Shown: one piece after another, positions 45,379 through 48,403 of the stretch | Position numbering within the stretch: the stretch's first letter is position 1 | How the letters are laid out: every line of letters starts with the position of its first letter | From: Phycisphaerales bacterium | GTDB taxonomy: Bacteria; Planctomycetota; Phycisphaerae; Phycisphaerales; UBA1924 | DNA length: 64,000 bases | Reading direction: 5' to 3' | Assembly (NCBI GenBank): GCA_029260295.1 | Contig: JAJDDN010000002.1 | Coordinates: 62,001-126,000 of the forward strand | The notes under the pieces: generated by a model | Told to the model about the DNA's origin: nothing | Database searches by the model: none | Seen by the model: the letters and a program-made list of their open reading frames with translations, nothing else | Position numbers and translations under genes: made by a program

Positions 45379-46833
45379 TCAGTTGATCGGGGTCGCTACC
45401 TTGGCGGACTGCCCGCCGACGGTTACCTCGGCGAGGGCGTACATCCGAACCGGTGAATCGATGAGCCCACGCAGCGTGTGCGGGTCGGCGGAGATCAGAT
45501 GCAGACTGATTTCTGACGAGCGGTCATCGGCATCGGGGAATGCCAGTTCTGGCTCGGCACGCAGGATCAATGACAAGTGATCTCGTACCCAGGCGCGGAC
45601 GGTCTCGAGGCGGGCCATCGGGGCATCGTGTTGATCGCCTGCGACGAGGTGCAGTTCTCCTGATTGATCGATGCATAGCTCAACATCGAGAGCGAACGGG
45701 CAGCGTGTTTCGAGCCTTGTGAGTCCGGCGATCATCGAACCAAGCCCTGTTGGCGTGGGCTTTGGAGCGGGGATAACTTCTTGCTCCTTGGGGGTGTTTT
45801 CTCTGTATGCTGCGGCCAGTTGTTCGGCTGCGATCTGTGGATCTTCGGCGATTTGTGGCTCAAAGTATTCGGCCGGATCGGGTGCTTCGACGAGCCCGCT
45901 GGAGATGTCGATGAGTTCATCGAGAATACTGGTGGCTTGGTGGGCGACGGTGTCTCTGAAGATGTTGGTGGTGCCTGTGGCATCGATGCGGCCTGCGGCG
46001 TCGATGATTTCGATCGGGCGATCGAGGAAGGCATCAACTGCACGCGAGAGCTTTGCGCTTGCGTCGGCGACTTGCTGTCCGGTCGCGCCCATTACGGCGA
46101 GCCTGACATGGGGGGTGGTGTGGAGTTCGTCGGAATCCCAGACACTCGTGATTGTTTTAATGAGTCTGTAGGATGCGACGATCGCGGCTTCATCGGCGCC
46201 TGTCAGGATGGTGATCTCGTTGATTTCTTCGCGATCGAGGAGCTCGGGTTCTGTTGTTTCGTCGACGCGGAGGATGACCCGGTCTGCGATGGTGTTGACG
46301 CGCGCGAGGGCTTGGTGCAGTGAGCCGCAGACGGCGGAATCGATTGTTTGTGTCCCTGAGATGAGATCAACGGAGGTTGATCCTGCGGCGGCGCGGATGA
46401 GTGCGACGACTTCTCCACGGCGGCGTGCTGTTGAGCATGCGTACTGGCGGACCCAGAGCGATGCGCGGACGGGGAGATGTCCTAGCAATACTGCTTCGAC
46501 GCAGAGCACGCGCTCTGGATCGAGTTGGGGTTCGAGTTGGGGTTCGAGTTGGGGCTTGAGCTGGTGTTCGTCGAGGCGTGGCATGATCTCGATAGGTCTT
46601 TCTGGGACCATTGAGTCATCGGGGGGGCCTTTGAAGCGGACGGGTGCGGTGGTGACGGGCTCAACTGAATCCGTACCTGTTTGGGAGAAGGGTTCTGGTG
46701 CGAGTTCGCTTTCGCCGAGGAACAAATCAGCGAGCGCGTCGTATTCACCGTCTTCGATCCCGGCGAGCTTCATGTAGCCACCTGGCCCGGTTGGGCTTGT
46801 TTCGTTTTGGTTTGGCTCGTTGTCGTGATCCAT
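45379..46833 (-). CDS. Conserved hypothetical protein next to the ParA-CBM48 gene
   Basis: A 484-residue protein of unknown family. It has an acidic N-terminus, a short tandem repeat (QLEPQLEPQLDPE, about residues 97-109), and an ordered domain from VLLGHLPVRASLWVRQYA to RLAVMGATGQQVADASAKLSRAVD. That domain reads VALIRAAAGSTSVDLISG and ITILTGADEAAIVASYRLIKTI, which suggest a nucleotide-binding or P-loop-like alpha/beta fold without a Walker A. No membrane segment is present. GGAG lies six bases before the ATG at 46833. It follows the ParA-CBM48 gene by 64 bases on the same strand, so the two probably form an operon. Confidence 0.7.
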   Translation of the reverse strand: MDHDNEPNQNETSPTGPGGYMKLAGIEDGEYDALADLFLGESELAPEPFSQTGTDSVEPVTTAPVRFKGPPDDSMVPERPIEIMPRLDEHQLKPQLEPQLEPQLDPERVLCVEAVLLGHLPVRASLWVRQYACSTARRRGEVVALIRAAAGSTSVDLISGTQTIDSAVCGSLHQALARVNTIADRVILRVDETTEPELLDREEINEITILTGADEAAIVASYRLIKTITSVWDSDELHTTPHVRLAVMGATGQQVADASAKLSRAVDAFLDRPIEIIDAAGRIDATGTTNIFRDTVAHQATSILDELIDISSGLVEAPDPAEYFEPQIAEDPQIAAEQLAAAYRENTPKEQEVIPAPKPTPTGLGSMIAGLTRLETRCPFALDVELCIDQSGELHLVAGDQHDAPMARLETVRAWVRDHLSLILRAEPELAFPDADDRSSEISLHLISADPHTLRGLIDSPVRMYALAEVTVGGQSAKVATPIN

Positions 46834-46897
46834 GTGAGTCTCCACTCATTCCAGACCCTCCGGGCCTGTGAGCGTTGTGTGTTGATCGTACCTGAAA

Positions 46898-48403
46898 CTA
46901 TGCCCGCACGCGGACAACATTATTTTGTGAACCGATGCCGTTTTTTTGGTTCTCTGGGTTGTGTGGATCAAGGATCCATTGGCCATCGACCACGATTTTG
47001 TACTCATAGGACCCAGCCGGGAGTTTGCAGTACAGCTCGAAGATTCCGAGTGATTCGTTGTGCCGGAGCTCTGACAATACGGGGTTCCAGGCGTTGAAGC
47101 TCCCGGCGATCTGCACCACACTGCCAACGGATGCGGGCTGGACAAAGAGCACCCCGCCTGTGACGGCACGGGCGCCGAGCAGATTGGCCACTCTATTGGA
47201 TGGCGCCTGGGCTGGTGCCACAACTCGGTCATCGACGACCTCGATGGCTACCGGGCGGTGTGGCATCATTGATCTGCGGAGCGGGGCGGGGGCGACTTGA
47301 ACATCTGAATCATGATTCAGATGTCTTGCCCGGAGCGCCATTTCTTGGGATCTTGAGAGCGAGGGTGTTTGTACGGTTGCGGTTTCGGCATCAACACGCA
47401 TGGCAACCAGGGGTCCGAGCAGTTCTGAAGGCTCAGATGGGCCTGACACTTCTGGGGCTTGAGTTGGTTCAGGAGTTCCTGACGCTTCCTTGGGTGTGTG
47501 ATGAGCAACGACCACTTCAGACTGACGAGTTTCGTAGCTTTGGTCTTGGGAAACTTCGTCGGCATCTTGGCCGGGCTCTGGGCGATCGATGGTTGCGTTC
47601 TCTATGAGCCATTCGCAGAGTGATCGGTAGTCTTCTGCGCCGGGCGCGTTTGGGCTGAAGCTTTCGATGGGCTGGCCGTAGCTTGCGGCTTCTTTGAGGG
47701 TCTGGTCGTAGCGGATCACCAGAGGGATCAACGCGGAGCCGAAGCGTTCGCGGAGGTCATCGAGAAGGTCGCGTGCCAGGGGCTGGGACGGATCGTGCAT
47801 CGTTGCGAGGACTCTCGGGTTTAATCTCATCCCGACGCGGCGGGCGATTGAACGCACGGTCTGGACCTGCTTGGCGGCGCCCTTGAGGGAGAAGAAGCTG
47901 GTCTCGACGGGGATGATGACTTCGCGTCCGGCGGCGATGGCGTTGTAGGACAGCAAGCCAATCGAGGGGGAGCAGTCGATCAGGCAGACATCATACCGTC
48001 GGGGGACTTGTCCTGTTTCGTCGGCCTCTTGGCTCATGCGTGAGACTCGGTCGATGACTGATCGGAGTCGGAGTTCTTTGTCGGGCTGGCCCATCAGGCC
48101 GCCACGCGAGGATTCGAGTCCTGCGAGCATCATGTGGCTGGGGATGAGATCTAGGTTTCGGCATACATGCCAGACGAGGCGTTCGCGATTGAGCGTGGAC
48201 TCTGGGTCGGCGCGGAGTGCGTCGTAGATTGTTTGATCAAGCTTCTCTTCGGGGACCCCGAGCCCGGCGGCGCAATGAGACTGTGGGTCCATGTCCACCA
48301 AGAGCGTTCGGCATCCACGCGAGGCAAAGCCCGCGGCGAGATTGATAGAACTGGTGGTCTTCCCGCATCCACCCTTCTGATTTATGATGACAATCGTTCG
48401 CAC
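46898..48403 (-). CDS. ParA/Soj-type ATPase fused to a C-terminal CBM48/AMPK1 glycogen-binding domain
   Basis: A 501-residue fusion. The first 270 residues are a ParA/MinD-type ATPase with deviant Walker A KGGCGKTT (10-17), LLVDMDPQSHCAAGLG and the YDVCLIDCSPSIGLLSYNAI Walker B region. A proline- and serine-rich linker of about 150 residues follows. The last 80 residues, starting near GVLFVQPASVGSVVQIAGSFNAWN and including YCKLPAGSYEYKIVVDGQW and N..G..NN, form a CBM48-like glycogen-binding fold. ParA proteins move or position cargo; the added domain implies a polysaccharide cargo or sensor. No parB or parS was seen nearby, and the partner at 45379 has no known function. The start lacks a strong ribosome site. 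Confidence 0.88.
   Translation of the reverse strand: MRTIVIINQKGGCGKTTSSINLAAGFASRGCRTLLVDMDPQSHCAAGLGVPEEKLDQTIYDALRADPESTLNRERLVWHVCRNLDLIPSHMMLAGLESSRGGLMGQPDKELRLRSVIDRVSRMSQEADETGQVPRRYDVCLIDCSPSIGLLSYNAIAAGREVIIPVETSFFSLKGAAKQVQTVRSIARRVGMRLNPRVLATMHDPSQPLARDLLDDLRERFGSALIPLVIRYDQTLKEAASYGQPIESFSPNAPGAEDYRSLCEWLIENATIDRPEPGQDADEVSQDQSYETRQSEVVVAHHTPKEASGTPEPTQAPEVSGPSEPSELLGPLVAMRVDAETATVQTPSLSRSQEMALRARHLNHDSDVQVAPAPLRRSMMPHRPVAIEVVDDRVVAPAQAPSNRVANLLGARAVTGGVLFVQPASVGSVVQIAGSFNAWNPVLSELRHNESLGIFELYCKLPAGSYEYKIVVDGQWILDPHNPENQKNGIGSQNNVVRVRA

Follow-up and report, generated by a model that had tools for sequence, protein, structure and literature searches.

Bacterial ATPases of the ParA/MinD type position cargoes as different as chromosomes, plasmids, carboxysomes, chemotaxis clusters and flagella (PMC10241942). 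PhaM/PhaF and AlgP tether polyhydroxybutyrate (PHB) and polyphosphate granules (PMC13052382), and in plants the CBM48 domain of PTST brings a synthase to starch (PMC4339375). The gene described here joins an ATPase of the first kind to a domain of the last. It lies in a stretch of 64,000 nucleotides, referred to as the window, from a Phycisphaerales bacterium (assembly GCA_029260295.1, contig JAJDDN010000002.1, positions 62,001 to 126,000), at positions 46898-48403 of that stretch on the minus strand, and our analysis confirms that it is a fusion of a ParA ATPase with a CBM48 domain of the AMPK type. A review from 2025 on how bacteria position their organelles covers PHB and polyphosphate granules and does not use the word glycogen (PMC13052382), nor does a 2023 multi-ATPase study (PMC10241942). 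A search of a literature library, judged mostly from titles and the openings of abstracts, gave no description of a ParA-CBM48 protein, in agreement with the original prediction, made from the letters of the window, that no system of this kind was known to have been described.

The fusion resembles McdA/McdB and other ParA cargo systems (PMC13052382, PMC10241942) in that an ATPase stands beside an adjoining, conserved likely partner, apart from a Soj-like ParA. It differs from them in that the presumed cargo domain sits on the ATPase itself, the cargo is presumed to be a polysaccharide, and the partner is an FlhG-like protein without a P-loop. With the PhaM/PhaF and AlgP tethers (PMC13052382) it would share a principle, a granule at one end and the nucleoid at the other, whereas in the fusion an ATPase would be the switch. 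Like AMPK beta and PTST (PMC9788615, PMC4339375), it carries a CBM48 with two tryptophans that would bring another function to glucan; unlike them, it is a bacterial ParA with neither a kinase complex nor a coiled-coil scaffold.

Together with the gene that usually follows, the fusion appears to form a two-gene ParA module, in which a glucan-binding-type CBM48 is carried on a flexible linker and the next gene encodes the FlhG-like partner lacking a P-loop. The partner gene is a new element, absent from the original prediction. As the best explanation of the module we put forward, tentatively and with more doubt than confidence, an ATP-switched tether between alpha-glucan and the nucleoid.

Two conserved ends of the fusion protein

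The gene is a single open reading frame (ORF) of 501 residues with a GTG start, and its parts are as follows.

47594 to 48403, minus strand: ParA-type ATPase domain, residues 1-270 (AAA_31 at 7.9e-40; structural match to Soj 9a6n)
47180 to 47593, minus strand: linker, residues 271-408, mostly disordered (low predicted local distance difference test score, pLDDT; fast evolution)
47318 to 47356, minus strand: conserved linker helix, residues 350-362, consensus SRAAELAxRARxL (model helix 351-362 and conservation)
46901 to 47179, minus strand: CBM48 / AMPK1_CBM glycogen-binding-type domain, residues 409-501 (PF16561; sequence match to AMPK beta-2)
47087 to 47089, minus strand: codon of W439, equivalent of AMPK beta W100
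46976 to 46978, minus strand: codon of W476, equivalent of AMPK beta W133

The ATPase end is complete, as had been read from its KGGCGKTT motif and Walker B. The Pfam family AAA_31 matches residues 1-191 (CbiA also matches, at 7.7e-19), and the signature KGGxGKT[TS], present in 54/54 rows of the family alignment, agrees with this match in placing the domain with ParA/MinD. The best fold match of the ATPase part is Soj 9a6n, with Z 35.8 and a root-mean-square deviation (rmsd) of 1.7 over 250 aligned residues at 37% identity. We take NQKGGCGKTT to be the deviant Walker A, LLVDMDPQ the Walker A' and CLIDCSPS the Walker B region. The score against the BcsQ family of NCBIfam (TIGR03371), 83.7 bits, lies below the cut-off of 157.85. 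A structure model of the fusion based on the 54 rows has a pLDDT of 82.3 and a predicted template modelling score of 0.62, and both ends are confidently predicted: ten-residue blocks average 87-98 over residues 1-270 and 94-98 over residues 411-500.

At the C-terminus, AMPK1_CBM (PF16561) matches residues 427-500 at 5.4e-13, its 49.4 bits exceeding the cut-off of 26.8, while the separate Pfam model CBM_48 (PF02922) reaches 19.9 bits, below its cut-off of 22.4. When the tail alone was used in a sequence search of solved structures, the CBM of AMPK beta-2 was found at 5e-10, with plant SEX4 and pullulanases lower down. The fold-search rows for the fusion model do not reach the tail, and its identity as a CBM rests on sequence. 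The tail is predicted as a confident, beta-rich domain, and its relatives in sequence are of the AMPK-beta kind; a prediction that the tail lacks the CBM48 fold, which would have refuted the original reading, was thus not obtained, and the original description of a long linker joining the ATPase to a CBM48-like C-terminal domain stands.

The ligand site is largely preserved. W100 and W133 of AMPK beta stack on glucose units, and mutating the two equivalent tryptophans abolishes the effect of beta-cyclodextrin on AMPK (PMC9788615) and starch binding by PTST (PMC4339375). Both are present in the window and in 136/143 distinct CBM sequences (W439 in 141/143, W476 in 136/143); a loss of the aromatic ligand residues throughout the orthologues, which would have spoken against the original prediction, is thus not what is seen. 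At the other contact positions, AMPK K126, L146, T148 and N150, the window has K, I, S and N. Among the 143 distinct sequences the K126 position holds R in 126, the L146 position F or Y in 111, the T148 position E in 94 and the N150 position N in 121; at K126 and T148 most of the family departs from AMPK beta. The altered L146 and T148 loop positions suit a rival explanation, in which the CBM48 fold binds a protein or another ligand, the cargo is, for instance, an envelope or division structure, and the ATPase and its partner form a MinD/FlhG-like positioning pair. Retention of both tryptophans, which protein binding does not by itself demand, counts against this explanation, and we consider it rather unlikely.

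Comparison of the window with its nearest relative (L039) gives ratios of nonsynonymous to synonymous change (dN/dS) of about 0.04 for the ParA part, 0.06 for the CBM and 0.40 for linker residues 271-345, where dN is 0.34 and dS 0.83. Against the more distant L042, where dS is high, the ParA part again gives about 0.04 and the CBM 0.13. Both ends are thus under purifying selection, the CBM somewhat less so. The linker evolves fast, and its pLDDT is mostly below 50 (residues 296-318, 320-323, 327-348 and 364-401).

The partner gene

On the same strand as the fusion, and close behind it, lies the gene of the presumed partner.

45379 to 46845, minus strand: partner gene, 488 residues, its start 52 bp past the stop of the ATPase gene
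46714 to 46743, minus strand: N-terminal motif YDALADLFLG, residues 35-44, near-invariant
45970 to 46512, minus strand: FlhG/FleN-like domain without a P-loop, residues 112-292 (profile and fold match)
45382 to 45723, minus strand: C-terminal domain, residues 375-488 (confident model, no assignment)

The partner gave no Pfam or NCBIfam match. Its profile finds FleN at an E-value of 1.5e-4, and its model finds FlhG 4rz3 with Z 11.5 and an rmsd of 3.5 over 158 aligned residues at 18% identity. Over residues 112-292 it is therefore like FlhG/FleN in fold, with a weak profile match; it differs from them in an extra N-terminal motif, an extra C-terminal domain and the missing P-loop. No Walker A sequence (KGGxGK) occurs in any of the 57 aligned partner rows; by eye, its place is taken by GHLPVxAxxW (GHLPVRASLW in the window). 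An FlhG-like partner also suits the rival with a protein or other ligand. The model has a pLDDT of 79.8, and its blocks from residue 371 on average 84-97; in the fold search, matches to the ATPase-like domain took up the list, which barely covers this C-terminal domain. The N-terminal motif is modelled as a helix (residues 32-43) within a low-confidence N-terminus, and its positions are nearly fixed in the 57 rows (D36 in 54; L38, L41, F42 and L43 in 55 each).

A hidden Markov model (HMM) of the partner places it directly downstream of the ATPase in 74/80 named loci. Five of the six loci without a hit lie on contigs that run out within about 1.2 kb; in the sixth, L148, which has no masked bases, no same-strand ORF of at least 90 residues follows over the next 3.5 kb. 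With an iterated HMM the partner was found in 132/159 loci. In the family f19 one of four genomes has a match, at an E-value of 0.004, and in L238 the downstream gene, missed by the partner HMM, begins with a similar motif. In two loci (L155:7678-10212 and L152:4770-7310) the partner is about 845 residues long, an insert between the conserved parts nearly doubling its length.

The conserved linker helix of the fusion (R351 in 51/54 rows, R358 in 49/54) was considered as a docking site for the partner. Its score exceeds 99% of the null in 114/132 loci with a partner and in 4/20 without, seven contig-edge loci having been dropped, and these raw counts fit the idea. After correction for the tree the association finds no support (median p 1 for the four independent pairs on starred branches). 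The helix is also kept in L064 and L069, which come from genomes where no partner was found. Docking through the helix is therefore not claimed.

Distribution, ancestry and genomic context

The survey of the family covers 189 fetched loci with an ATPase that its profile recognises; being chosen by profile match, with same-genome duplicates included, they are not a random sample. The CBM is present in 180 of them and absent from nine. The same join recurs in 180/189 loci, which come from many assemblies, and both halves are constrained; this leaves almost no room for an assembly or frame error that joined two genes. In 20 further loci from the class sample, the profile match takes in the CBM region in 18, the two others being L194 and L195. 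The family profile, applied at 1e-20, matches 192/198 genomes of the class, ordinary ParA included, and many of these rows are full-length; likewise a ParA match, ordinary ParA counted in, was found in 61/61 relatives searched. The families f15, f18, f22, f25 and most of f9 have only ordinary-ParA-like matches, as read from scores of loci that were not fetched.

In a quick tree of 87 ATPase domains, made without bootstrap, a branch with 99% support in the Shimodaira-Hasegawa approximate likelihood-ratio test (SH-aLRT) splits 75 family rows from 12 ordinary ParAs, 11 of them from outside the class and one from the window genome. The CBM label changes five times on this tree, at least four of the changes being forced by starred branches, and five of the eight CBM-less loci included in it fall in one clade. 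This fits one old fusion followed by about four later losses. The fusion architecture occurs in many families across Phycisphaerae, a class of the Planctomycetota, and appears to be old and vertically inherited. Outside the class, among 12 loci of the phylum fetched for a high ParA score, one carries the fusion (L209).

Several observations were made alongside this survey. The best 80 named loci are labelled Phycisphaerae or Planctomycetota with two exceptions, L127 and L157, fusion-family members on metagenome-assembled genomes named Leptolyngbya and Cyanobacteria; these labels are probably wrong. Behind the fusion of L209, the sole one seen outside the class, the protein of L209:2609-3595 (minus strand) starts with a ParB-like peptide, KLGRGIEDFIG, and shows by eye a MinD-like region with a broken P-loop; it has no Pfam match and no credible match in the PDB. 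Two further ParAs from outside the class, L212:3384-4934 (plus strand) and L213:2368-3870 (minus strand), carry by eye a Rieske-type tail (CAHM...CKTHGAVY); both come from the same family, and theirs is a different type of tail on a planctomycete ParA.

Could the fusion simply be the chromosomal ParA with an added tail? Its closest solved fold is Soj, and in one genome, G053, a parB gene (L074:12675-13742, plus strand) is located some 4 kb away from the fusion and on the other strand, which makes a link to segregation possible in some genomes. Among the loci scanned with one parB query, L074 and its duplicate record L128 are the only ones with parB near the fusion. A second ParA of the window genome, encoded on another contig, is far closer to Soj of T. 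thermophilus (1wcv), at 190 bits against 121 for the fusion, and the one parB match in this genome (G000:C6) is on a third contig, not beside the fusion. Since both the closer Soj homologue and parB lie elsewhere, the fusion ATPase appears, from these comparisons, not to be the chromosomal ParA of the window genome. Most of the 61 relatives likewise have further ParA matches, at about 34-46% identity, and a chromosomal ParA with a tail is in our view highly improbable. No plasmid copy of the fusion was seen among the best 5,000 records from a tblastn search of 72,556 plasmid records, none of them having a single place that covers 80% of the query.

The neighbourhood offers little to go on. In the window the ATPase gene stands between aroB and the partner gene; in 41 loci the recurrent neighbours are aroB upstream (26/41) and clpX downstream (16/41), and these are uninformative as a clue to function.

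Glycogen genes and the proposed function

Enzymes acting on alpha-glucan are common in the group, which speaks for the glycogen reading. Matches to GT5-like glycogen synthase are present in 175/198 genomes of the class, many of them weak and partial, and GH57 was found in 35/37 genomes, the window's included. GT35 glycogen phosphorylase was found in 23/26 chosen genomes, those without being the window genome, G142 and G050. In the window genome the GT5 hit, 539 residues long, reaches the cut-off of none of the 25 NCBIfam families shown (out of 49), among them glgA_Coryne. The alpha-amylase-family hits of this genome fall in two ORFs with export-like signals by eye, one of which carries a GC-type dockerin (NF041540) and scores under the branching-enzyme cut-offs. 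One protein of the pair L223:2203-4650 and L224:616-2733 (both minus strand, window genome) is an exported-looking alpha-amylase-family protein with this GC-type dockerin, and the other, elsewhere in the genome, has a similar C-terminus by eye. An alpha-glucan metabolism free of phosphorylase is possible in this genome, judging from these matches.

In the proposed mechanism the CBM would bind intracellular alpha-glucan, that is glycogen, and the ATP-bound ParA dimer would bind the nucleoid. The fusion would then be a tether, switched by ATP, by which glycogen is spread over the nucleoid and partitioned with a ParA clock. The partner would set hydrolysis and release, acting by way of the N-terminal motif or as a second half paired with the ParA domain. 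Of this scheme, the sequences show the intact ATPase motif, the intact glucan site and the linked partner gene, while binding to glucan and nucleoid and control by the partner are inferred. Residue 237 is basic in 54/54 rows (K in 36, R in 18) and lies in the segment aligned with the PRNVRL stretch of Soj. The fuller claim, that a ParA with a built-in cargo domain and a dead FlhG-like regulator holds and partitions glycogen, and that this arrangement is ancestral to much or all of the Phycisphaerae, is one that we regard as doubtful.

One genome offers a case for the glycogen role. Of 17 order members tested for GT5, GT35 and GH57, G050 is the only one with none of them (a GH13 match at 9.3e-17 remains), and in its CBM a proline replaces the second tryptophan, the W133 equivalent. 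G142, which has GH57 and neither GT5 nor GT35, keeps both tryptophans. Other members of the G050 clade lost a tryptophan or the CBM yet keep these genes. A general rule by which loss of glycogen genes leads to loss of the CBM was tried and rejected, as it fits G050 only.

A number of observations weigh against the tether. Among genomes whose family member has no CBM, GT35 is present in 8/8 (G036, G042, G048, G054, G221, G229, G233 and G241) and, in the class sample, GT5 matches are present in 7/7; six genomes whose best match is at the level of an ordinary ParA, their loci not fetched, have GT35 in 6/6 and GT5 in 5/6. Seven distinct sequences have lost a ligand tryptophan, and 4/5 of the genomes searched among them have GT5 matches. 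The presence of glycogen genes in CBM-less members makes the tether slightly less likely. Glycogen phosphorylase was found in 0/18 genomes of the window's genus, a result that also suits a protein or other ligand for the CBM, and a look by eye through the recurrent neighbours of the 41 loci turned up no glycogen-related gene (Pfam having been run on the window neighbours only). All nine CBM-less loci among the 189 keep the ATPase, with the partner in 8/9, and G016, a member of the genus 91% complete, has neither fusion nor partner, its only match being an ordinary-looking ParA at 4.3e-37. Nine loci of the families f20, f23 and f24, of which one is close to a contig end, gave no partner next to the fusion, and none was found in 10/10 genomes of these families; the genome search also missed a copy in G068 that is visible in locus L186, so that these negatives are not firm and divergent copies elsewhere are possible.

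Two steps of the mechanism are affected directly. In the alignment, the window has Y232 and T235 where Soj has the two arginines of its PRNVRL stretch, and DNA binding is therefore uncertain. Described ParA partners have a positively charged, disordered N-terminus (PMC10241942). In the partner here the N-terminus is of low confidence in the model, but up to the motif it is net negative in 50/56 rows that have the motif, and in the window residues 1-45 hold one K or R and eleven D or E. Control of the ATPase through this N-terminus would thus be unusual.

The main rival to the tether is a glycogen sensor, in which alpha-glucan on the CBM switches the ATPase, and the ATPase passes on the state of the carbon reserve to some target, such as replication or division, without any granule being moved. 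The CBM is of the AMPK-beta type, and beta-cyclodextrin, like glycogen, inhibits AMPK through W100 and W133 (PMC9788615). In described positioning systems the contact to the cargo is made by the partner (PMC10241942); as it is the ATPase that carries the CBM here, a sensor fits the domain order better than a tether does. Retention of the ATPase and partner in some members without the CBM is in keeping with a sensor, and that some members drop the CBM and keep the partner is in keeping also with a protein or other ligand. Against a sensor, no target gene was identified and no regulatory neighbour was seen by eye in the 41 loci, and we judge it rather unlikely, placing it barely ahead of the other-ligand explanation and behind the tether. 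The original prediction had proposed positioning, segregation or sensing of glycogen: the fusion and the intact ligand site on which it was built hold, and a role in glycogen is plausible, partly challenged by the distribution of the glycogen genes.

If the module does hold glycogen, it would make the placing of a polysaccharide store in bacteria, and its distribution between cells or within them, directly testable. The pairing of an active ParA with a dead-looking ParA-like protein could reveal how clocks of this type are tuned. Even with another ligand, a two-gene module that is conserved, and whose second protein is uncharacterised, would be of interest in the Phycisphaerae.
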